From: a virus
Length of the DNA: 21,124 nucleotides
Strand: one strand, 5' to 3'
Virus record (IMG/VR): IMGVR_UViG_3300028025_001883
Coordinates: 1-21,124 of that record
The notes under the pieces were generated by a model. It saw only the letters and a list, made by a program, of their open reading frames with translations. It had not been told where the DNA came from and made no database searches. Below, in pieces: positions 7,593 through 19,544 of this stretch (position 1 is the stretch's first letter; each line of letters opens with the position of its first letter). The position numbers and the translations under genes are program-made.

Positions 7593-7775
7593 ATGAGAGA
7601 CTACAAGAAAGAGTATCAGGAATATCACGGTAAGCCGAAACAGATTTCTCGCAGGGCAGGTCGTAACGCTGGACGCGCCAAGGCTGTGAAGCTAGGCATG
7701 GCATCCAACGGAGACGGCAAGGATGTTCACCACAAGAACAACGCTGAGTCCATCCACCCCGAATCGAAGCCCTAA
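7593..7775 (+). CDS. N-terminal half of an HNH-like small protein, interrupted
   Basis: A 60-residue product beginning MRDYKKEYQEYHGKPKQISR with an arginine-rich helix and then GDGKDVHHKNN. In the HNH-like family, HH is normally followed by N-P-x-x-N-R-x-x-N-L and an S-x-N-R tail. Here the sequence after HHKNN (AESIHPESKP) does not fit and stops. The missing C-terminal half, PKDNRASNLASTSVSKNRGF, is found 421 bases downstream in another frame. Joining base 7741 to 8163 restores an uninterrupted frame. Whether the short form keeps any function is unknown; the basic helix may still bind DNA. It could be annotated as a pseudogene fragment. Confidence 0.7.
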   Translation: MRDYKKEYQEYHGKPKQISRRAGRNAGRAKAVKLGMASNGDGKDVHHKNNAESIHPESKP

Positions 7776-8162
7776 GATTATGAAACAAAACCAAACTGAA
7801 TCGAAGCAGAAAGACATTGAAGAACCCCGTGATGAGGGGTTGGATGAGACGGCTTGTTCTCCGTCTTTTGTCGGGTATCTGCCCGAAAGTTGGTCAATGC
7901 TGAAAGACTCGATTTATGCAGCTCAAGAGGCTATCAGAGCAGGAATCGAAAACACTCAGGAGTTGCTGGCCGATCACGACGTGAGACTAGGGCGGACAAC
8001 TCGAAGCAACCGCTACACGGCGGAAAGGCTGGAAGGCGAAATCAGGCAAATGCAAGCCGCGCTCGATGGGCTCCAAAAACCAAACGGATGCGCCTACGGG
8101 GAAAGCTCGCCGATGGCTCCGCATGGTGCGCGGCGGCAAGTGGATCTATCTCTGGAGAACAA
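7735..8162 (+). repeat. AGAACAA direct repeats bounding the 421-bp interruption of the HNH-like gene
   Basis: AGAACAA occurs at 7735-7741 and at 8156-8162. Removing one copy plus the intervening DNA (7742-8162, 421 bp, one more than a multiple of three) fuses the HHKNN codons to the PKDNRASNL codons in frame. The repeat could be a target-site duplication, a recombination scar or microhomology at the junction. The inserted DNA carries its own start codon and a helical protein. No terminal inverted repeats or intron core were recognised. Confidence 0.6.
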
Positions 8163-8265
8163 TCCCAAGGATAACCGCGCCAGCAACCTCGCCTCTACCT
8201 CCGTAAGCAAGAATCGCGGATTCCCCCGCACAGCAAAGAATAAGCCCAAAGGACGACTCAAATGA
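7780..8265 (+). CDS. Coiled-coil protein fused to the C-terminal tail of the HNH-like protein
   Basis: A frame of 161 codons from ATG 7780. Residues 1-110 are acidic then helical (SWSMLKDSIYAAQEAIRAGI; ENTQELLADHDVRLGRTTRS; AERLEGEIRQMQAALDGLQK), a coiled-coil pattern that recurs, from memory, in small phage proteins. From about residue 128 the sequence changes to PKDNRASNLASTSVSKNRGF and a basic end, which is the expected C-terminus of the HNH-like protein begun at 7593. The fusion therefore looks like the product of a rearrangement. Between 8066 and 8206 another frame (M-G-S-K-N-Q..., with KARRWLRMVRGGKWIYLW) also looks protein-like and may be the cut-off start of a further small gene. The stop overlaps the next ATG (ATGA). 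Confidence 0.6.
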   Translation: MKQNQTESKQKDIEEPRDEGLDETACSPSFVGYLPESWSMLKDSIYAAQEAIRAGIENTQELLADHDVRLGRTTRSNRYTAERLEGEIRQMQAALDGLQKPNGCAYGESSPMAPHGARRQVDLSLENNPKDNRASNLASTSVSKNRGFPRTAKNKPKGRLK

Positions 8266-8576: not shown

Positions 8577-8627
8577 GAACAGGTCGATACACTGAACGCT
8601 TTGCGTCAGTGATCTTGGCTGTTCGGC
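8577..8627 (+). repeat. attC-like palindrome A
   Basis: Folds as GAACAG (8577-8582) with CTGTTC (8619-8624); unpaired GTC opposite TTGG; GAT with ATC; extrahelical A8589; CACTGA (8590-8595) with TCAGTG (8606-8611); extrahelical A8596; CGC with GCG; loop TTT. The right end is GTTCGGC, one base off the integron R-prime consensus GTTRRRY. Two extrahelical bases separated by six paired bases are the hallmark of integron attC sites, and they lie in the left half, giving a rightward polarity. The stop codon of the leftward gene at 8606 is inside the stem. Nearly identical to the site at 17771. A structured terminator is the alternative reading. Confidence 0.65.
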
Positions 8628-8932
8628 AGACACAAAGAGCATCGGTGCGAATCGTTTGGACTCATGTTGAGTGCGTCGATTTTCCTCCGTAGGCGCATTC
8701 CAATGGTGCACGCTTCGCGCTCCGTCATCAGTCCCGATTTTTCCAGCGCCGCGAGATTACGCTGCATATCCAGCAGTCTGAGCGCCTGTCCTTTTTGCTC
8801 TGGACGCCAAGAGAATCCATCATCCTCCGCCTGCCTCCAAAAGCTCTTTGCATAGACTCCAAGACTGGGACGGAAGCGTGCCGAACAAGTCGCCGCACGC
8901 AACGGGCTATCGCTTTTCAATTTCTTTTTCAT
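8606..8932 (-). CDS. Small helical hypothetical protein, leftward cassette-like gene
   Basis: A 108-residue protein starting MKKKLKSDSPLRAATCSARF (a start 45 bases further upstream at 8977 is possible). The middle is helical (QKGQALRLLDMQRNLAALEK, MRLRRKIDALNMSP). I do not recognise a family. The gene starts inside the variable loop of attC-like site B and its stop (TGA read leftward, 8606-8608) lies in the stem of site A, so the gene spans almost exactly the DNA between the two sites. The C-terminal residues LPNSQDH are encoded by the palindrome itself. No clear Shine-Dalgarno is visible. The overlapping rightward frame at 8664-8855 has a poor, Ser/Cys-rich composition. Confidence 0.6.
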   Translation of the reverse strand: MKKKLKSDSPLRAATCSARFRPSLGVYAKSFWRQAEDDGFSWRPEQKGQALRLLDMQRNLAALEKSGLMTEREACTIGMRLRRKIDALNMSPNDSHRCSLCLPNSQDH

Positions 8933-8973
8933 AGTCGTTTCAGGTTCGCCCGTGCGTGGGCTAGACGTTCGCC
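8880..8973 (+). repeat. attC-like palindrome B (long variable loop)
   Basis: Left box GCCGAAC (8880-8886), right box GTTCGCC (8967-8973). Pairing: GAAC with GTTC; spacer AAGTC opposite TAGAC; GCC (8892-8894) with GGC (8959-8961); extrahelical G8895; CACGCA (8896-8901) with TGCGTG (8953-8958); extrahelical A8902; CGGGC (8903-8907) with GCCCG (8948-8952); then a 40-base variable loop. The primary sequence is unlike site A, but the order and sizes of paired and unpaired elements are the same, including the six-base separation of the extrahelical bases. The stop codon of the leftward gene at 8961 is in its right half. Confidence 0.65.
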
Positions 8974-9197
8974 TCACAAACGGAATGCGGAATCCCCGTT
9001 ATCAACCTGTCTGCGCCGGGACCGTCCATGTTCCACACAGTTGCGTCCACCGTATCAGCGTGGACTGCTTCGATTGTTGCCGCGCAATCAATTCCCCATC
9101 GGTTCTTGATCGGCACAGTTACAATGTCGCCCACAGAAAAAGGCGAACAAGGCGGTGGACCCAACAGAATCCCGTCGGTGTTTTCTGGTGTATTCAT
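8961..9197 (-). CDS. Small beta-barrel-like hypothetical protein
   Basis: A 78-residue product beginning MNTPENTDGILLGPPPCSPF. The core FSVGDIVTVPIKNRWGIDCA, then ATIEAVHADTVDATVW, alternates hydrophobic and polar residues with a V-G-D-x-V-x-V opening, as in small SH3-like barrels; this is inference from pattern. An alternative start at 9227 would add ten residues but overlaps the next gene. The C-terminus CEANV and the TAG stop are encoded within attC-like site B. Its start lies a few bases downstream of the stop of the gene at 9202, so the leftward genes are probably co-transcribed. Function unknown. Confidence 0.6.
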   Translation of the reverse strand: MNTPENTDGILLGPPPCSPFSVGDIVTVPIKNRWGIDCAATIEAVHADTVDATVWNMDGPGADRLITGIPHSVCEANV

Positions 9198-9201
9198 AGA
9201 T

Positions 9202-9492
9202 TTATTTTTCGGGACTCTGTGAGTCACCTTTGGCGTTCGGCAGAGAATTTTGACGGCACTCCACGGAATCCTCCCATGCTGGCTTGGGTGCGGGCTCGTG
9301 CTTCAGCCAGAGCTTGTGGCGTCCGCAGTCCACCAGCGTGTAAGCCTCCCAACGTCCACAGGGTTTGCAGTTACGGTGATGGTTGCAATTCGGGTGATCG
9401 TAGATCCATTGATGCCACCCGATCAGGCAACAAAGATGCCGAACAAAGCGTGCGAGAGCAATCCGCCCCCGCTGTGTTATCGAAGTTTTCAT
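9202..9492 (-). CDS. Small Cys/His-rich protein, DUF1660-like
   Basis: A 96-residue product starting MKTSITQRGRIALARFVRHL. It contains LCCLIGWHQWIYDHPNCNHH followed by RNCKPCGRWEAY, giving C-x-x-x-G-W-H and C-x-x-C-G pairs that could bind zinc, similar to the small prophage proteins grouped as DUF1660. The C-terminal tail ends LPNAKGDSQSPEK. The LPNAK codons are the right half of an attC-like sequence (GTTCGGC on the plus strand). The frame is open further upstream to 9591, but that extension overlaps the neighbouring gene. No clear Shine-Dalgarno. The rightward frame across 8952-9497 is judged a shadow. Confidence 0.6.
   Translation of the reverse strand: MKTSITQRGRIALARFVRHLCCLIGWHQWIYDHPNCNHHRNCKPCGRWEAYTLVDCGRHKLWLKHEPAPKPAWEDSVECRQNSLPNAKGDSQSPEK
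9213..9241 (+). repeat. Possible degenerate attC half-site
   Basis: GACTC TGT GAGTC forms a 5-bp hairpin (9213-9225), followed by ACCTTTGGC and GTTCGGC (9235-9241), very like the right half of site A (ATCTTGGCT then GTTCGGCAGA). No GAAC-type left box occurs at the expected distance, so it cannot fold as a full attC. It overlaps the 3-prime end of the leftward gene at 9202. It may be an eroded site or a truncated duplicate. Confidence 0.35.
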
Positions 9493-9497
9493 GGTAG

Positions 9498-9785
9498 TTA
9501 TTTTGCTTGGTGAGTATCGGAGGTCGGTGTCGGGGCGGATGCCTCCACTTGGTCGTTCGTAGGTAAGAAATGCCGTCCTTCCTTGCCGCATACGTCACAA
9601 CCAAAAAGTCGCTCTAGCCTAGAGACTTCCCTTCGTTGTGACTTGCAGAATAAATTTGTGAACGTCTGCACTGTTTCGCCAGTTACAAGGGATACTTTTG
9701 AGCTTAGGGGGCGGACGCAAACATCAATGTCCCTGATGTGTTTGTGGTGCTTGCAATTTCTGCAAATAGGAGTTTCAGTGTTCAT
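9498..9785 (-). CDS. Small Cys-rich zinc-ribbon-like phage protein
   Basis: A 95-residue protein with MNTETPICRNCKHHKHIRDI (C-x-x-C-x-H-H), V-C-V-R-P-L, F-C-K-S-Q-R and a second pair in GCDVCGKEGRHFLP. The order C-x-x-C...C-V-R-P...V-S-L-V-T-G...F-T...C...C-G-x-x-G-x-x-F recurs, from memory, in small phage proteins that probably bind a structural metal; no enzymatic role is known. It is the first gene of the leftward block; its leader lies in the 945-base control region and includes a GGGG/CCCC hairpin (9802-9816). It is followed by the gene at 9202-9492 after 5 bases. Confidence 0.75.
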   Translation of the reverse strand: MNTETPICRNCKHHKHIRDIDVCVRPLSSKVSLVTGETVQTFTNLFCKSQRREVSRLERLFGCDVCGKEGRHFLPTNDQVEASAPTPTSDTHQAK

Positions 9786-10730: not shown

Positions 10731-11747
10731 ATGAGCAATCCAGAAGCTACCGCTGAAGCTATCGAATCAGTGTCTAACCTGTCATTTGAAGAGCTTGTAG
10801 CTCAGAGAACGGCAAGACAAAATCCAGAACCTGAATCCGAGGAGCAACCCGAAGAAGAAGTAACCGAAACTGAGGAGGAAGAGATTTCTACCGAAGAAGA
10901 AGAAGCCGAAACAGAGGAAGAACCCGAAGAGGAGGAAGAGGAAAGCGAAATTGATCTACTGTCGTTGACCACGGAGCAGATTCAATCTTTAGCCAAAAAG
11001 GGTAAGAGCCGACTCCTTCAACGGATTGGCGAGCTAACCGCTCAGAAAAAAGCCTTAGAGGAAAAGATTCAATCTCAACCTAAAGTTAAGGAAGTTCCAC
11101 AAGAAGAAATTCCGATTCAGATTCGAGAAATAAAATCACTCGATGAATTAGAAGCGAAATATGAAGAACTTGAGAACACCCTTGAAGCAACGGAAGAATT
11201 ACTAAGACAATACCGAGATTATAGTCCTGAAGATATAATCCTAGTAGGAGACAGGGAATTCACCAAGAAGCAGATTGATGACGCTAACTTCAATAGCCGC
11301 AAGTCATTGAATAAATACATACCTGCCCAGAGAGCCAATATCCAACGGATGGCTCAAATGGATCAGTTGAAAAATCAATACATTGCAGCTGCACAAGAAG
11401 AAGTTCCAGACATAACGGATGAAACCACGACTGTCGGGAAACAATTCAAAGATTTAATGTCTGACCCGCTTATCGAAAAGCTACGCAAACAAGTTCCTGA
11501 AATTGGCTACCAAATAGAATACATCCTGGCTCATGCGTCAAACTCCATCAACGGTGGAACGAGAATCAAGAAGCAACCTGCGGTGGCGAACAAGCTGAAA
11601 ATCAGCCCATCATCTTCGCCATTTGGTGCAGGAGCTGCGAAATCCTCGGCCCCCTCCACGAAAAAGGGGACGGACGCATACAGCCGCTTTGAAAAAAGTG
11701 GGAGTCCGGAAGAATGGGTTGCTGCTAGAATCGCTAAATACAAGTAA
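10731..11747 (+). CDS. Putative head scaffolding protein
   Basis: A 338-residue protein directly upstream of the major capsid gene, the classical scaffold position. Residues about 30-75 are an extreme Glu-rich tract (for example EEEEAETEEEPEEEEEESEI), followed by helical, coiled-coil-forming sequence (RIGELTAQKKALEEKIQSQP; LEAKYEELENTLEATEELLR). The C-terminus is flexible and then basic (TDAYSRFEKSGSPEEWVAAR), as expected for the segment that contacts the capsid protein. Scaffolds guide prohead assembly and are then released. The gene is more A-rich than the capsid gene and its start (CCAATATGAGC) has no Shine-Dalgarno. A different internal head protein is possible but less likely. Confidence 0.8.
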   Translation: MSNPEATAEAIESVSNLSFEELVAQRTARQNPEPESEEQPEEEVTETEEEEISTEEEEAETEEEPEEEEEESEIDLLSLTTEQIQSLAKKGKSRLLQRIGELTAQKKALEEKIQSQPKVKEVPQEEIPIQIREIKSLDELEAKYEELENTLEATEELLRQYRDYSPEDIILVGDREFTKKQIDDANFNSRKSLNKYIPAQRANIQRMAQMDQLKNQYIAAAQEEVPDITDETTTVGKQFKDLMSDPLIEKLRKQVPEIGYQIEYILAHASNSINGGTRIKKQPAVANKLKISPSSSPFGAGAAKSSAPSTKKGTDAYSRFEKSGSPEEWVAARIAKYK

Positions 11748-11765
11748 ATTCAACCAACTAAGAAA

Positions 11766-12761
11766 ATGCCTATCTCAAATACTTATCAGCCATCCGCCCC
11801 CGCCGCAAAAGCGGGTCAGGGTTCCGCCGTCTCCAACCGTGAGGATCTAAGCAACGAGCTTTCCATCCTCGCACCGGAAGAGACTCCTATCCTTTCGCTC
11901 TGCGGCAAGGGTAAAGCATCTGCCACCTACACCGAGTGGACTGTTGACAGCCTCGCCTCTCCCGCAACCACGGGTATCAGCGAAGGTTCTGACGTTACCT
12001 CGTTCTCCGACAAGTTCGCGGATCGCGCTCGCCTTGGAAACTACATCCAACTCATGCGCCGTGACTACATTGTGTCCAACCTCCAGCAAGCCGTCACCAG
12101 TGTCGGCCCTGCTAACGTGGCACAAGCGGAAGCGAAGTCCATGCGTGAAATCAAGCGCGATATCGAAGCCACCATCGCCTCCGATAACGAGATGACGGTT
12201 GAGAACGGTGCTGGCACTCCTTACGGAATGCGCGGTCTTGGCAAGTGGATTCAGTCCACCGCCCAAGCAACCAACCCAGTTCCCGCTGCTTATCGCACCC
12301 CATCCGGTTCGATCATTGCTTCTACGCTCAGTGAGTCCTCGTTCAACACGATGATCGGCAGCATCTTCGCCAAGAACGGTGAGATGAACAGCCTGACCCT
12401 TGTTGCTAACGTGGCACTTCGCCAGCTTATCAGCAACTTCACTCGTGCAACTCCGGCGTCCGCTGGCGTTACCTACCACGTCAACCAAGACGCTACGAGC
12501 AAGCAAATCACCCTTTCGGTGAACCTGTATGACTCCGACTTCGGACTTGTTAAGATCGTGAACGGCAACCCTAGCTGTATGCCAACTGGCTCGACCAACG
12601 TGGGCTACGTCCTCAATCCTAAGTATCTGGGCTTCAACACCCTGATTCCTATGGGTGCTACTCGCCTTGAAAACCAAGGTGGCGGCGAGCGCGGCTTCAT
12701 TGACGTTGCAGGAACCCTGTGTGTCAAACACCCACAAGCCCACGGTAAAATCGCATACTAA
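11766..12761 (+). CDS. Major capsid protein, SU10-type (DUF5309-like)
   Basis: A 331-residue protein with the N-terminal signature NREDLSNELSILAPEETP, then LSLCGKGKASATYTEWTVDS and TTGISEGSDVTSF, which matches the SU10/DUF5309 capsid family (HK97 fold). The family forms the icosahedral shell after scaffold-assisted assembly. The middle (MRRDYIVSNLQQAVTSVGPA; RDIEATIASDNEM) and the C-terminal P-domain-like segment (YVLNPKYLGFNTLIPMGATR) fit. Codon use is more regular and GC-rich than in neighbouring genes, as in highly expressed genes. That bias creates a long antisense frame at 11847-12797, which is not a gene. The leader CAACTAAGAAA has no Shine-Dalgarno. Confidence 0.92.
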   Translation: MPISNTYQPSAPAAKAGQGSAVSNREDLSNELSILAPEETPILSLCGKGKASATYTEWTVDSLASPATTGISEGSDVTSFSDKFADRARLGNYIQLMRRDYIVSNLQQAVTSVGPANVAQAEAKSMREIKRDIEATIASDNEMTVENGAGTPYGMRGLGKWIQSTAQATNPVPAAYRTPSGSIIASTLSESSFNTMIGSIFAKNGEMNSLTLVANVALRQLISNFTRATPASAGVTYHVNQDATSKQITLSVNLYDSDFGLVKIVNGNPSCMPTGSTNVGYVLNPKYLGFNTLIPMGATRLENQGGGERGFIDVAGTLCVKHPQAHGKIAY

Positions 12762-14146: not shown

Positions 14147-14982
14147 TGAACTACTCACTTTCAAATATGCTTGGTAGGCGGATGGCGTTGGCGTCACTTG
14201 ATCCAGATGCTAAAGGATACATTGATGCAGTTGTAGCTGCTGGTGGCACGGTTAGCGGAGGGCAGAAGTCGGCTATCAATACCTTCTACAAGACAGGAAA
14301 AAGTGATGGTTGGTATTCCTCGCTAAAACGCCTCTATCTTCCAATATGGGGAGTAGCTGCACCTAATGCCATTGATATGATCGGTCTAACGAGCGGCACG
14401 TTTGTTGGGGGGGTGACACATAGCTCAGGATATGTCACGGGCAATGGATTAACTGGGTATTTTGATACGGGCGTTGACCCAGTAACCCTAGGACACACAA
14501 ATGCGACTGGGTTGCTCATTGCTCTAACTTACATTTCAAGTGTGCAAACCAGTGGGGGAATGCTTTCTTGTGCCGAATTGTTAGGTGCTAATCCTATTAC
14601 ATCCCTTCAACTGGGTACAAATGAAACCGTAGGACACCTACATCAAATTTCTGGTAGGCTGAGATACACGGAGCCCGGGGGGGCTGCTGATAGGGTTGGG
14701 ATTTACACTGTTTCAAGGACAGCAACAAACGCAATAGAAATGCGGAGACGGAGAACGGCAGGGGCAATACAACTTGTATCTGGAACATCAACAACAGTTG
14801 CGGCATCCACCAGAAACCTTTATGCAATGGCCTCTAATTACGCGACCATCGCTAGTATTTTTAACTCATCTAGCTTTGGATTGTATGGGGCAGGATTGGG
14901 GATGTCATCTGCTACCCAAGACCAATTATCCGCCTCACTTAAAACCATGTGGGAAGGCGCAACCGGACTTACCTTGCCATGA
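14146..14982 (+). CDS. Tail-fibre-like or virion surface protein
   Basis: A 278-residue Gly/Ser/Thr-rich protein. The start contains DPDAKGYIDAVVAAGGTVSG and INTFYKTGKSDGWYSSLKRL, a helical segment that recurs, from memory, before the receptor-binding part of phage tail-fibre proteins. The remainder is beta-rich (TNATGLLIALTYISSVQTSG; ATNAIEMRRRRTAGAIQLVS; FNSSSFGLYGAGLGMSSATQ), consistent with a concanavalin/LamG-like jelly roll binding host glycans. It lies between neck and lysis genes. It is short for a complete fibre, so it may be one module of a tail spike or a separate tip protein. The stop overlaps the following gene by ATGA. Confidence 0.6.
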   Translation: MNYSLSNMLGRRMALASLDPDAKGYIDAVVAAGGTVSGGQKSAINTFYKTGKSDGWYSSLKRLYLPIWGVAAPNAIDMIGLTSGTFVGGVTHSSGYVTGNGLTGYFDTGVDPVTLGHTNATGLLIALTYISSVQTSGGMLSCAELLGANPITSLQLGTNETVGHLHQISGRLRYTEPGGAADRVGIYTVSRTATNAIEMRRRRTAGAIQLVSGTSTTVAASTRNLYAMASNYATIASIFNSSSFGLYGAGLGMSSATQDQLSASLKTMWEGATGLTLP

Positions 14983-15281
14983 TCGGGTTTGTAGTCACTC
15001 CAGAGCAAGCACAAGCCGTCAACGCTGCTATTGCAGACGCGCAGACAAGCCGTGGTATGCCCGTGTTCTGGCTGGCTGGCAGCTACCCTATTTACAGAGG
15101 ACAATACGCAGGAGAATCTTTTATTCCATGCGACGACGAAACGCTCGCTACTCCACTTATCGGACACCCCCCGCAGACCCCGCAGGATTTCCCTGAGTTC
15201 GCCACGATCATTGAATCAATAGGTGGGCTAGACGCTCGCATTGATATTCCCGCTTTCGACATTACCCCGCCTGAGCCATGA
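14979..15281 (+). CDS. Small tail-associated hypothetical protein
   Basis: A 100-residue product starting MIGFVVTPEQAQAVNAAIAD; this start gives an ATGA overlap with the tail-fibre-like gene and is preferred to one 30 bases upstream. The sequence GMPVFWLAGSYPIYRGQYAG, then IPCDDETLATPLIGHPPQTP, is followed by an acidic Pro-rich end (RIDIPAFDITPPEP). Coupling to the fibre gene suggests a chaperone, capping or accessory tail protein, but no family is recognised. It overlaps the next gene by ATGA. Confidence 0.65.
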   Translation: MIGFVVTPEQAQAVNAAIADAQTSRGMPVFWLAGSYPIYRGQYAGESFIPCDDETLATPLIGHPPQTPQDFPEFATIIESIGGLDARIDIPAFDITPPEP

Positions 15282-15685
15282 GCGACAAGTTTCCAGACAG
15301 AGCAGAGTTCGCGTTAGCTGGCATCCGCAGGGGAAGCAGGACATTTATGCTTACCGCTCCGTTCAGATACGATTCGCGGATAGGATGGCTCACCGTTCCT
15401 TCTGGATTCCTCACTGATGGGGCATCCATCCCACGGGTGTTCTGGTCTATCTTCTCTCCTACTGGCAGCTACTTTGAGGCGGCGTTGATCCACGACTATC
15501 TCTATTCCAACGTAAGCACATGGCGCATTGACCGCGTTATGGCAGACAAGATATTCCTTGACGCAATGCAGGAGATTGGAGTTGGCTGGCTTACGAGAAA
15601 AACCATTTACCGCGCTGTTCGCCTTGGCGGATGGAAGGGATACAAGAAAAGCAAACTACAAGATGATTTCCAGCCAGATGAATAG
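15278..15685 (+). CDS. DUF1353 family protein
   Basis: A 135-residue protein with GWLTVPSGFLTDGASIPRVF, SPTGSYFEAALIHDYLYSNV and a C-terminal basic helix (TRKTIYRAVRLGGWKGYKKS). V-P-x-G-F-x-T-D-x-A-S-I-P-R and A-x-x-x-H-D-x-L-Y are the defining motifs of DUF1353, a family common in phages near tail and lysis genes. Its His-Asp pair suggests a hydrolase-like site, but activity is not established. Length is normal. It overlaps both neighbours, and the holin-like gene starts within its last codons. Confidence 0.85.
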   Translation: MSDKFPDRAEFALAGIRRGSRTFMLTAPFRYDSRIGWLTVPSGFLTDGASIPRVFWSIFSPTGSYFEAALIHDYLYSNVSTWRIDRVMADKIFLDAMQEIGVGWLTRKTIYRAVRLGGWKGYKKSKLQDDFQPDE

Positions 15686-17770: not shown

Positions 17771-17821
17771 GAACAGGTCGATGCGGTGAACGCTGCGCGT
17801 CACCGATCTTGGCTGTTAGCC
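17771..17821 (+). repeat. attC-like palindrome D
   Basis: Folds like site A: AACAG with CTGTT; spacer GTC opposite TTGG; GAT with ATC; extrahelical G17783; CGGTGA (17784-17789) with TCACCG (17800-17805); extrahelical A17790; CGC with GCG; loop TGC. The right end GTTAGCC differs at one base from R-prime consensus GTTRRRY. Compared with site A, two stem pairs changed on both sides (A-T to G-C and C-G to G-C), keeping the fold. The TGA stop of the leftward gene at 17800 lies in the stem. It separates the rightward late module from the second leftward block. It could also act as a convergent terminator, though it has no T-run. Confidence 0.65.
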
Positions 17822-18033
17822 AGAGCAATCAACTCGTTAGCAAGTGCCCGTAATTGGTCTGGCGTTACATCCACCCCAAACCAACCGTCACAGCATTCAC
17901 CCACCGTAAAATTGCCGTCTTTGCCGAGTTTTACATCAAACACCCTATTGGCTTTCACGGCTTCTAGCATGGTTTGGTATTCCACAGTTTCTAGGTTTTC
18001 GTTTGACGTGTATTCTTTAATTTCGTAGGTCAT
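17800..18033 (-). CDS. Small hypothetical protein ending in attC-like site D
   Basis: A 77-residue acidic protein: MTYEIKEYTSNENLETVEYQ, LEAVKANRVFDVKLGKDGNF, TVGECCDGWFGVDVTPDQLR, and a C-terminal helix ending ANSQDR. The pattern suggests a small alpha/beta fold; no family recognised. It is the last gene of the second leftward block. Its last codons and stop are part of the attC-like palindrome, exactly as for the gene at 8606, whose C-terminus (PNSQDH) is encoded by the same palindrome half. The upstream leader (TCCTTCTTTTTATATTT) lacks a clear Shine-Dalgarno. Confidence 0.7.
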   Translation of the reverse strand: MTYEIKEYTSNENLETVEYQTMLEAVKANRVFDVKLGKDGNFTVGECCDGWFGVDVTPDQLRALANELIALANSQDR

Positions 18034-18093
18034 AAATATAAAAAGAAGGATAACAAGTGGATGCTGGCAACGGCGGGAAGTTGCCTGTTTGGT

Positions 18094-18324
18094 TTATTCG
18101 GAGCCCTGCGCCCGCCGCGCCAGATCCTTGTCGTTCGTCTCAATAATCTTCCCTGCCCAGTCGGTGACAGTTCCATCGGGATGCGTCACCTTGCCGTTTT
18201 CGATGGTCACTTTCCCGTTGCCCACCGTGAAGGATTGAAGCACGACTCTGCCGCGTTCGCTTTCTGTTGTTGATCCAAGCACGCGATATTCGCGGCCTCC
18301 AATAGTTTTCAGTTTCGTTTTCAT
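18094..18324 (-). CDS. Small beta-rich hypothetical protein
   Basis: A 76-residue protein: MKTKLKTIGGREYRVLGSTT, SERGRVVLQSFTVGNGKVTI, ENGKVTHPDGTVTDWAGKII and a charged end (TNDKDLARRAQGSE). Repeated G-x-V-T turns indicate a small beta-sheet or barrel. No family recognised. It lies two bases downstream of the Cys-rich gene at 18327 and is followed by a 60-base gap containing a GGCAAC/GTTGCC hairpin (about 18069-18088). Probably part of the leftward operon. Confidence 0.7.
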   Translation of the reverse strand: MKTKLKTIGGREYRVLGSTTESERGRVVLQSFTVGNGKVTIENGKVTHPDGTVTDWAGKIIETNDKDLARRAQGSE

Positions 18325-18326
18325 AG

Positions 18327-18584
18327 TTACCAGAATGTGCAGTCTTCAGCTTTGCCTGAGCCTCCGCAGCAGGTGCAGCGATAGAATTGATCGGGATCAT
18401 ACCAGCCTGGATCGCCAAGCTCGGAGCCTTCCACGAGTCCCTCACCGCCGCAGAAGTGGCAGGGATCGTCATCATCGAATTGGCAATCGTCGTCCTGCGT
18501 TGAAGAAGACGAACAAGACACTCCTGCCAATGCCTGCCCGTCGGCAGTTTGGTCAGGAATCGGAGTTTGAGGGCGGGCAGTCAT
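18327..18584 (-). CDS. Small zinc-finger-like protein with DnaJ-type Cys motifs
   Basis: An 85-residue protein with a Ser/Asp-rich N-terminus (SCSSSSTQDDDCQFDDDD) and a C-terminal half containing CHFCGGEGLVEGS and YRCTCCGGSGKAEDC. C-x-x-C-G-G-x-G and C-x-x-C-G-G-S-G are the two halves of a DnaJ-like central zinc finger, here reduced to one zinc-binding unit. Similar very small proteins recur in phages, from memory, with no known role. It overlaps the gene at 18581 by ATGA, so it is translationally coupled. Confidence 0.75.
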   Translation of the reverse strand: MTARPQTPIPDQTADGQALAGVSCSSSSTQDDDCQFDDDDPCHFCGGEGLVEGSELGDPGWYDPDQFYRCTCCGGSGKAEDCTFW

Positions 18585-18910
18585 GGCAGAGTTTTTGCGT
18601 TCTCCAATAAAGTAATAGAGATAATTGTCAGATCTGATGGCGGAATGGGGTTCTCAAACTTAGACACAATCGCAGCTTTCAGATCCATGTAATCCGTCCA
18701 CGTGATGATCGGCTTGTTCTGTGTAGCGATGCCGTCGGTATAGGCCGTCCCCCCAGTTTTTGGCGCGTGGACAGCGCAGTAATGGTAAATCCATCTAGGA
18801 GAACAAGCCGCGGCAGACGAACCACGAGCACACGTCTCGCACGGCTCGCCTTTCATAGCCATTCCGTCCGTCATCCCGCATACTGGGCATTGCATTATTG
18901 AGGTGCTCAT
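18581..18910 (-). CDS. Cys-containing hypothetical protein (109 aa)
   Basis: The N-terminus IMQCPVCGMTDGMAMKGEPC, then ETCARG, has two C-x-x-C pairs that probably bind zinc. A middle aromatic segment (PRWIYHYCAVHAPKTGG) and a helical end (TWTDYMDLKAAIVSKFENPI, PPSDLTIISITLLENAK) follow. The W-x-D-Y-x-x-L-K...P-P-x-x-x-T-I-I-S-I-x-L-L pattern recurs, from memory, in phage proteins of unknown role. It is in the leftward operon, overlapping the gene at 18327 by ATGA and 18 bases downstream of the gene at 18929. Confidence 0.75.
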   Translation of the reverse strand: MSTSIMQCPVCGMTDGMAMKGEPCETCARGSSAAACSPRWIYHYCAVHAPKTGGTAYTDGIATQNKPIITWTDYMDLKAAIVSKFENPIPPSDLTIISITLLENAKTLP

Positions 18911-18928
18911 GGTCGCTGCGCTGTGGCG

Positions 18929-19114
18929 TTAGTATTCATGCAGTGTTTCAGGAAACTCATAGACGGCGTGAATCCGTTCCATGATTGCGGATTGAACAGC
19001 TTCCTCGATTTGCTCGTAAGAAGGATCTTCCGTGTGCTTATGCGCTCTTGAAACGCCGTATCTACAGCCTTCCTCGATGCAGTTGCTCAGTATTGCTAGG
19101 TGTTTTGGTTTCAT
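18929..19114 (-). CDS. Small helical hypothetical protein
   Basis: A 61-residue product starting MKPKHLAILSNCIEEGCRYG and continuing VSRAHKHTEDPSYEQIEEAV and QSAIMERIHAVYEF. It is all-helical and acidic; no family with known function. The start at 19114 lies one base after the stop of the RuvC-like gene; ATG 19135 is an alternative that would add seven residues and overlap that gene. The pattern L-A-x-L-x-x-C-x-x-x-G-x-x-Y-G with R-A-x-K-H-T recurs, from memory, in phages, which supports the shorter form. Confidence 0.7.
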   Translation of the reverse strand: MKPKHLAILSNCIEEGCRYGVSRAHKHTEDPSYEQIEEAVQSAIMERIHAVYEFPETLHEY

Positions 19115-19115
19115 A

Positions 19116-19544
19116 TCAGTGTTGTTTAGTTCCATATGTTGCGATTAGTAGAGAGTCTGCTGTTGCGTGAGTGACCTTTAGGCTTGGGAAAAGCTCCTGA
19201 GCCTTCCGCTTGGTGATGTTTTTATCTCCTTTCGTCATACATCCAAGCTCTTTCTGCCAGACTTGAGGACGAACCCTTGTGAAGGGGATTCCCGCCGCTG
19301 TTAATGCCATCTCAAGGTGTCCGAATCCATTGCCGAAAGTGAAGGCGGATTTCACTCCCATCTGAGGGGATGAATGGACTTGCTCGATGTAAGCATGGCA
19401 ATACTCCTCGCTGGAAACTTCAATATCGCGTAGCATCTCCCACAAGTCTTGCAGGGTGTCCGGCATCTTCTCCACGCAGGGTTTCCCGCCCGTGATCCAT
19501 GCGATACCGCCATTGACTCCAGGGTCACAGCCTATGACGGTCAT
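19116..19544 (-). CDS. RuvC-like Holliday junction resolvase
   Basis: A 142-residue RNase H-fold endonuclease. Catalytic carboxylates sit in the expected motifs: MTVIGCDPGVNGG (Asp7), AYIEQV (Glu54), and THATADSLLIATYG (His126, Asp130). A segment with glycine-rich loop and helix (KSAFTFGNGFGHLEMALTAA) and RVRPQVWQKELG match phage RuvC-type enzymes, which resolve branched DNA before packaging or in recombination. Length is near that of small phage resolvases. It overlaps the upstream gene by ATGA and belongs to the leftward replication/accessory operon. Confidence 0.88.
   Translation of the reverse strand: MTVIGCDPGVNGGIAWITGGKPCVEKMPDTLQDLWEMLRDIEVSSEEYCHAYIEQVHSSPQMGVKSAFTFGNGFGHLEMALTAAGIPFTRVRPQVWQKELGCMTKGDKNITKRKAQELFPSLKVTHATADSLLIATYGTKQH

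Follow-up and report, generated by a model that had tools for sequence, protein, structure and literature searches.

A probable integron-type gene cassette interrupts an HNH_3 gene in a phage genome fragment that carries two cassette arrays

An HNH_3 gene encoded by a metagenomic viral contig (IMG/VR record IMGVR_UViG_3300028025_001883) is split by a 418-bp segment that is, with high confidence, an integron-type mobile gene cassette, presumably integrated at a secondary site by an integron integrase supplied in trans. The stretch analysed, referred to as the window, is a single contig of 21,124 nucleotides. The insertion has exact ends and an attC-like structure, part of it is found as a module elsewhere, and cassettes in the arrays of related phages have been cleanly swapped. 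The features at the interrupted gene are as follows.

7593..7741, plus strand: HNH_3 gene, 5' half (31 uninterrupted relatives; PF13392 match of the restored protein)
7593-7775, plus strand: 60-aa ORF left by the split 5' half, ending in the cassette-encoded tail NAESIHPESKP
7742..8159, plus strand: probable integron-type gene cassette, 418 bp (registers 7740-8157 to 7743-8160, sharing AAC)
7740..7858, plus strand: attC-like hairpin of the inserted cassette, AAC to GTT (identity with contigs L048 and L049; folds, with bulges on the 3' arm)
7780..8265, plus strand: chimeric ORF, 161 aa, from the cassette gene via LSLEN into the HNH tail NPKDNRASNL (translation)
8160..8265, plus strand: HNH_3 gene, 3' half (comparison with uninterrupted relatives)

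The original prediction that an HNH-like gene had been split is borne out by the uninterrupted relatives whose search it had proposed, and by the domain match of the restored protein. A search of IMG/VR with the spliced protein retrieved 45 relatives, of which 31 (L001–L031), with 85–96% protein identity, are uninterrupted at this point. The restored protein of 84 aa (HHKNNNPKDNRASNL) matches the Pfam family PF13392, HNH_3 (E 1.2e-6, 28.4 bits, cut-off 24.8). All 31 uninterrupted loci carry three Asn codons at the split site (AAGAACAACAAYCC and synonymous variants), which can be recreated only by deletions of 418 bp; these come in four equivalent registers, with AAC common to all. The insert had been predicted to measure 421 bp and the spliced gene 83 codons; given the three Asn codons of the empty sites, a 421-bp deletion takes one codon too many. 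The sequence AGAACAA is present at both junctions as claimed, but the 7-bp direct repeat inferred from it is mostly coincidence: the register ambiguity extends to AAC only (GTT on the other strand), which is all that target and cassette ends have in common, and both the longer repeat and the longer insert arose because one target codon was counted into the repeat. Compared with the 31 empty sites, neither junction displays a target-site duplication, the hallmark of insertion sequences and transposons. The ends of the insert carry the complementary boxes GGAGAAC and GTTCTCC, as expected for one cassette.

The insert comprises an attC-like hairpin followed by a gene body and reads in the direction of the HNH gene. 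Two unrelated viral contigs, L048 and L049, end in a sequence 100% identical to the insert's left part (7740-7861); other genes precede the module there, and yet it begins at the same AAC. As the left end coincides with a module boundary in two other contigs and the end boxes are complementary, the clean ends are more than chance. In both contigs the gene preceding the module gains the tail NAESIHPESKP and a stop, fused at the AAC codon, like the HNH half; these preceding genes match window genes at 9233-9557, 17808-18142 and 18597-18820, and the matches also break off at AAC. Homologues of the 60-residue protein ending in HPESKP had been named in advance as evidence against a split. The tail does occur on these two contigs, yet the split stands, since the travelling attC site encodes the tail and appends it to unrelated genes. 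The protein encoded by the right part has an 81% homologue on viral contig L047, encoded there by an ordinary gene that has a start of its own. Translation confirms that the downstream frame is, as predicted, a chimera of cassette protein and HNH tail.

Two cassette arrays are present elsewhere in the window, both on the minus strand and spanning, with their anchor hairpins, positions 8578-9557 and 17772-18930.

8578..8623, minus strand: anchor hairpin of array 1 (AACAGCCAAGATC...GACCTGTT), equivalent in position to attI; the pattern recurs in nine viral records
8624..9557, minus strand: cassette array 1, three cassettes, attC-like units at 9557-9442, 9237-9146 and 8969-8884
17772..17817, minus strand: anchor hairpin of array 2, 46 bp
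17818..18930, minus strand: cassette array 2, attC-like units at 18930-18802, 18601-18512 and 18135-18052

Read on the minus strand, the gene bodies start with GTTNNNN, finish with the complementary NNNNAAC and are separated by units of 84–129 bp in both arrays. Both arrays terminate at the same 46-bp hairpin, which occupies the attI position but resembles a compact attC. The hairpin is absent at array 1 from the relatives G005 and G004, the former of which looks complete because its two ends overlap when mapped onto the window. Exchange is directly visible at one locus in five relatives: L071, L076 and L077 differ from the otherwise identical L074 and L075 by the exact replacement of one cassette, the swapped segment running from the hairpin's G|TT to the one that follows. 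In 84,980 species genomes, neither the anchor hairpin nor the one cassette protein searched found a match, so that no host integron or host emerged; nucleotide comparison with isolated phages returned trivial matches only, and PADLOC and Pfam assigned no confident function to the cassette proteins.

Three further observations concern the arrays and their surroundings. At the far end of array 1, the gene at 9498-9785 (minus strand) derives its C-terminus (NDQVEASAPTPTSDTHQAK) from the first attC unit and may represent a second case in which a cassette has modified a phage gene. A RuvC-like Holliday junction resolvase (19116-19544, minus strand; phrog_1770, 3.2e-25) lies just upstream of array 2. 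The 73-kb phage record G026 harbours two copies of the anchor hairpin, at 52502 and 57020, together with long cassette arrays, and no integrase match was obtained in it.

The attC-like character of the units was assessed by permutation. In integron chemistry the R' box of a circular cassette is formed by that cassette's start, which predicts that the two ends of each cassette should be complementary. Over 16 cassettes, some of them from related phages and hence not all independent, the four box-adjacent bases of the cassette's own ends are complementary at 62 of 64 positions, compared with 32 of 64 across the intervening unit; a value of 62 was reached in none of 200,000 permutations. Arm pairing was tested in the same manner in preference to an attC covariance model, because loop lengths vary widely. 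In 14 units the hairpin's own arms pair with a mean of −28.8 kcal/mol against −16.7 kcal/mol for exchanged arms (0/200,000 permutations); the own arm is the best partner in nine units, and in the remaining five it does not rank first against foreign arms. Together with the folds, this test identifies the units as imperfect hairpins. In gene sense it is the 3' arm that carries the bulged bases, matching the bottom strand of the aadA1 attC. A G|TT crossover and an R'' box complementary to the cassette's own start are likewise present. The core boxes depart from GTTRRRY, being mostly GTTCNNN, with GTTAGGC and GTTAGCN also found, and several long units give weak z-scores when folded as a whole. 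A simple scanner requiring two hairpins and complementary ends recovered four distinct cassettes in the window arrays and two chance pairs in 12 shuffled windows. In ordinary integrons an attC unit belongs to the gene body that lies to its left; here, end complementarity and the clean swaps assign it, in gene sense, to the body on its right.

The orientation of the genes is reversed relative to standard cassettes. The aadA1 gene lies on the top strand of its attC, whereas in the arrays examined both the gene-sense crossover (AA|C) and the position of the bulges identify the gene-sense strand as the attC bottom strand. Cassette ORFs usually begin inside their own attC unit and run past the cassette end into the next site; in the cassettes followed by eye, the crossing AAC is read in frame as Asn and a stop follows within a few codons. 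Some ORFs terminate short of the crossing point, and the automatic ORF list includes chance pairs. The other, non-exchanged box is crossed in two different frames. As the exchange point is crossed in one frame (AAC as Asn), the proteins acquire tails from neighbouring attC sites, a phasing that may reflect selection for exchangeable C-terminal tails.

Neither the window nor the close relatives that were searched, the seemingly complete G005 among them, yielded a tyrosine recombinase or intI; the intI that a complete integron carries in the same element was thus not found, and the enzyme presumably acted in trans. A scan of viral records with one attC unit of array 2 returned 19 stretches, and five of the records concerned encode an integron integrase. 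The integrase of the near-identical records G016 and G024 scores 287 bits against TIGR02249, above the cut-off of 265, and that of G018, G025 and G029 scores 194 bits, below it. The best PDB match of these phage enzymes is the Vibrio cholerae integron integrase 2a3v (1e-53 and 1.4e-32), with which the G016 protein aligns across most of its length. The integrase gene begins right after the last cassette and a AACAGTTAA... site, which adjoins intI in the integrase-bearing records, and lies on the same strand as most cassette ORFs. The last attC unit of array 2 (18135-18052) is 96.7% identical over 91 bp to units of G018, G025 and G029, and identity to the G016 unit is 92.1%. The phage nature of G016 is evident from terminase and portal matches, and that of G018 from a terminase match.

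The records G018 and G025 are nearly identical, but with their cassettes, one of which is DNA methyltransferase-like, reshuffled. The methyltransferase-like genes adjoining the phage integron integrase (G018 14161-15639; G025 11295-12071) suggest anti-restriction cargo. Separately, the terminase ORF of G016 (L113:5465-8149), read by eye, seems to be interrupted by an intein-like segment (HDDDCFIRGTMILTPSG...GILVHNCLADAIAW).

The sequence of events leading to the interrupted gene can be outlined on this basis. The integrase would come in trans, either from another phage or from the host, and would fold the single-stranded attC of a circular cassette (GGAGAAC...GTTCTCC). The hairpin would then be joined to a secondary site present by chance within the HNH_3 gene, GATTG|TTGTTC (minus strand). 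The outcome is an insertion with clean joints and no duplicated target, a shortened HNH protein bearing a cassette-encoded tail, and a chimeric ORF; there are two fusion products because the target AAC is in frame. HNH function has probably been lost. The cassette is likely to stem from a pool kept by these phages at two fixed anchor hairpins, with one array at each, and whose members would be exchanged through the same G|TT joining. Counting against an integron origin are the absence of an integrase in the window and in G005, the GTTC boxes, the reversed ORFs and the weak z-scores.

Other routes to the same arrangement are much less convincing. Phages are mosaic and the joints have just three bases in common, so that illegitimate recombination, driven by microhomology or annealing between phages, might have brought in a foreign fragment, with AAC matching by chance; this is improbable, considering that the left end of the insert is the module boundary of L048 and L049, that the right end carries the complementary box (4/4), and that the same AA|C joints return in all arrays and clean swaps. 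Slightly less probable again is an assembly chimera, in which the repeated attC module would have led the assembler to join non-adjacent pieces. The module does occur in at least three contexts and contigs L048 and L049 end inside it, but neither junction with an HNH half falls inside the repeat, the two having only 3 bp in common, and the two insert ends match each other as one cassette.

The least credible explanation, which can practically be dismissed, is an intron-like element taken out of the RNA or one bypassed during translation. It would account for the exact restoration of the frame upon deletion, yet a 418-base insert between AAC codons restores the frame for any cassette so phased, the insert is a DNA cassette module found at unrelated genes, and no Rfam family, group I and II intron structures included, matched at gathering thresholds. 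Among the readings originally offered, mobile cassette insertion is thus upheld, in the specific form of an integron-type gene cassette, and an RNA-removed intervening element is disfavoured by the Rfam result and the recombination ends.

Work on integrons has centred on their role as platforms for resistance and defence genes in bacteria, with few phage examples. Here, phages without overall similarity share near-identical attC units and carry arrays at fixed anchors, and some of them encode an integrase beside methyltransferase cassettes. A broader scenario, to which we give about even chances, is that phages keep an integron lineage of their own: cassette genes would be read from the attC bottom strand toward attI/intI within a phage operon, the exchange point would be a fixed in-frame Asn codon, so that each move swaps a C-terminal tail, phages devoid of integrase would be served by the enzyme of other phages, and off-target moves would generate fusion proteins in other phage genes, as in this window. 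Cassette trade from one virus to another, the exchange of tails at a fixed codon and the origin of fusion proteins through off-target insertion are now directly testable.

Phage integrons as such are already known; what is new is the polarity, the phasing and the in-gene insertion. No paper describing a reversed-polarity phage integron or an in-frame exchange codon was found in a literature search that covered few subscription journals and no preprints. Qi et al. 2023 (PMC9892861) reported integrons and integrase-less attC clusters (CALINs) in phages, with some phage attC sites usable by IntI1 in an assay, and typical same-direction arrays in two virulent phages, with mixed directions elsewhere. 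The present phages resemble that survey in the pattern of attC clusters without integrase in virulent phages and few phages with one, and differ in having ORFs on the attC bottom strand, an exchange codon in frame, one attC family shared with integrase-bearing phages and one cassette within a phage gene. With the canonical class 1 cassette (aadA1 attC) they share the imperfect hairpin, paired boxes, bottom-strand bulges, G|TT joining and cassette-end complementarity; in contrast, the gene is on the attC top strand there and on the bottom strand here, and the boxes here are mostly GTTC. Off-target integron recombination at secondary GTT sites has been described by Souque et al. 2023 (PMC10127599). 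In both cases GTT triplets outside an integron serve as targets, with disruption of genes; the earlier events were experimental plasmid inversions, whereas here a whole cassette is situated in a phage gene, in a record without an integrase.
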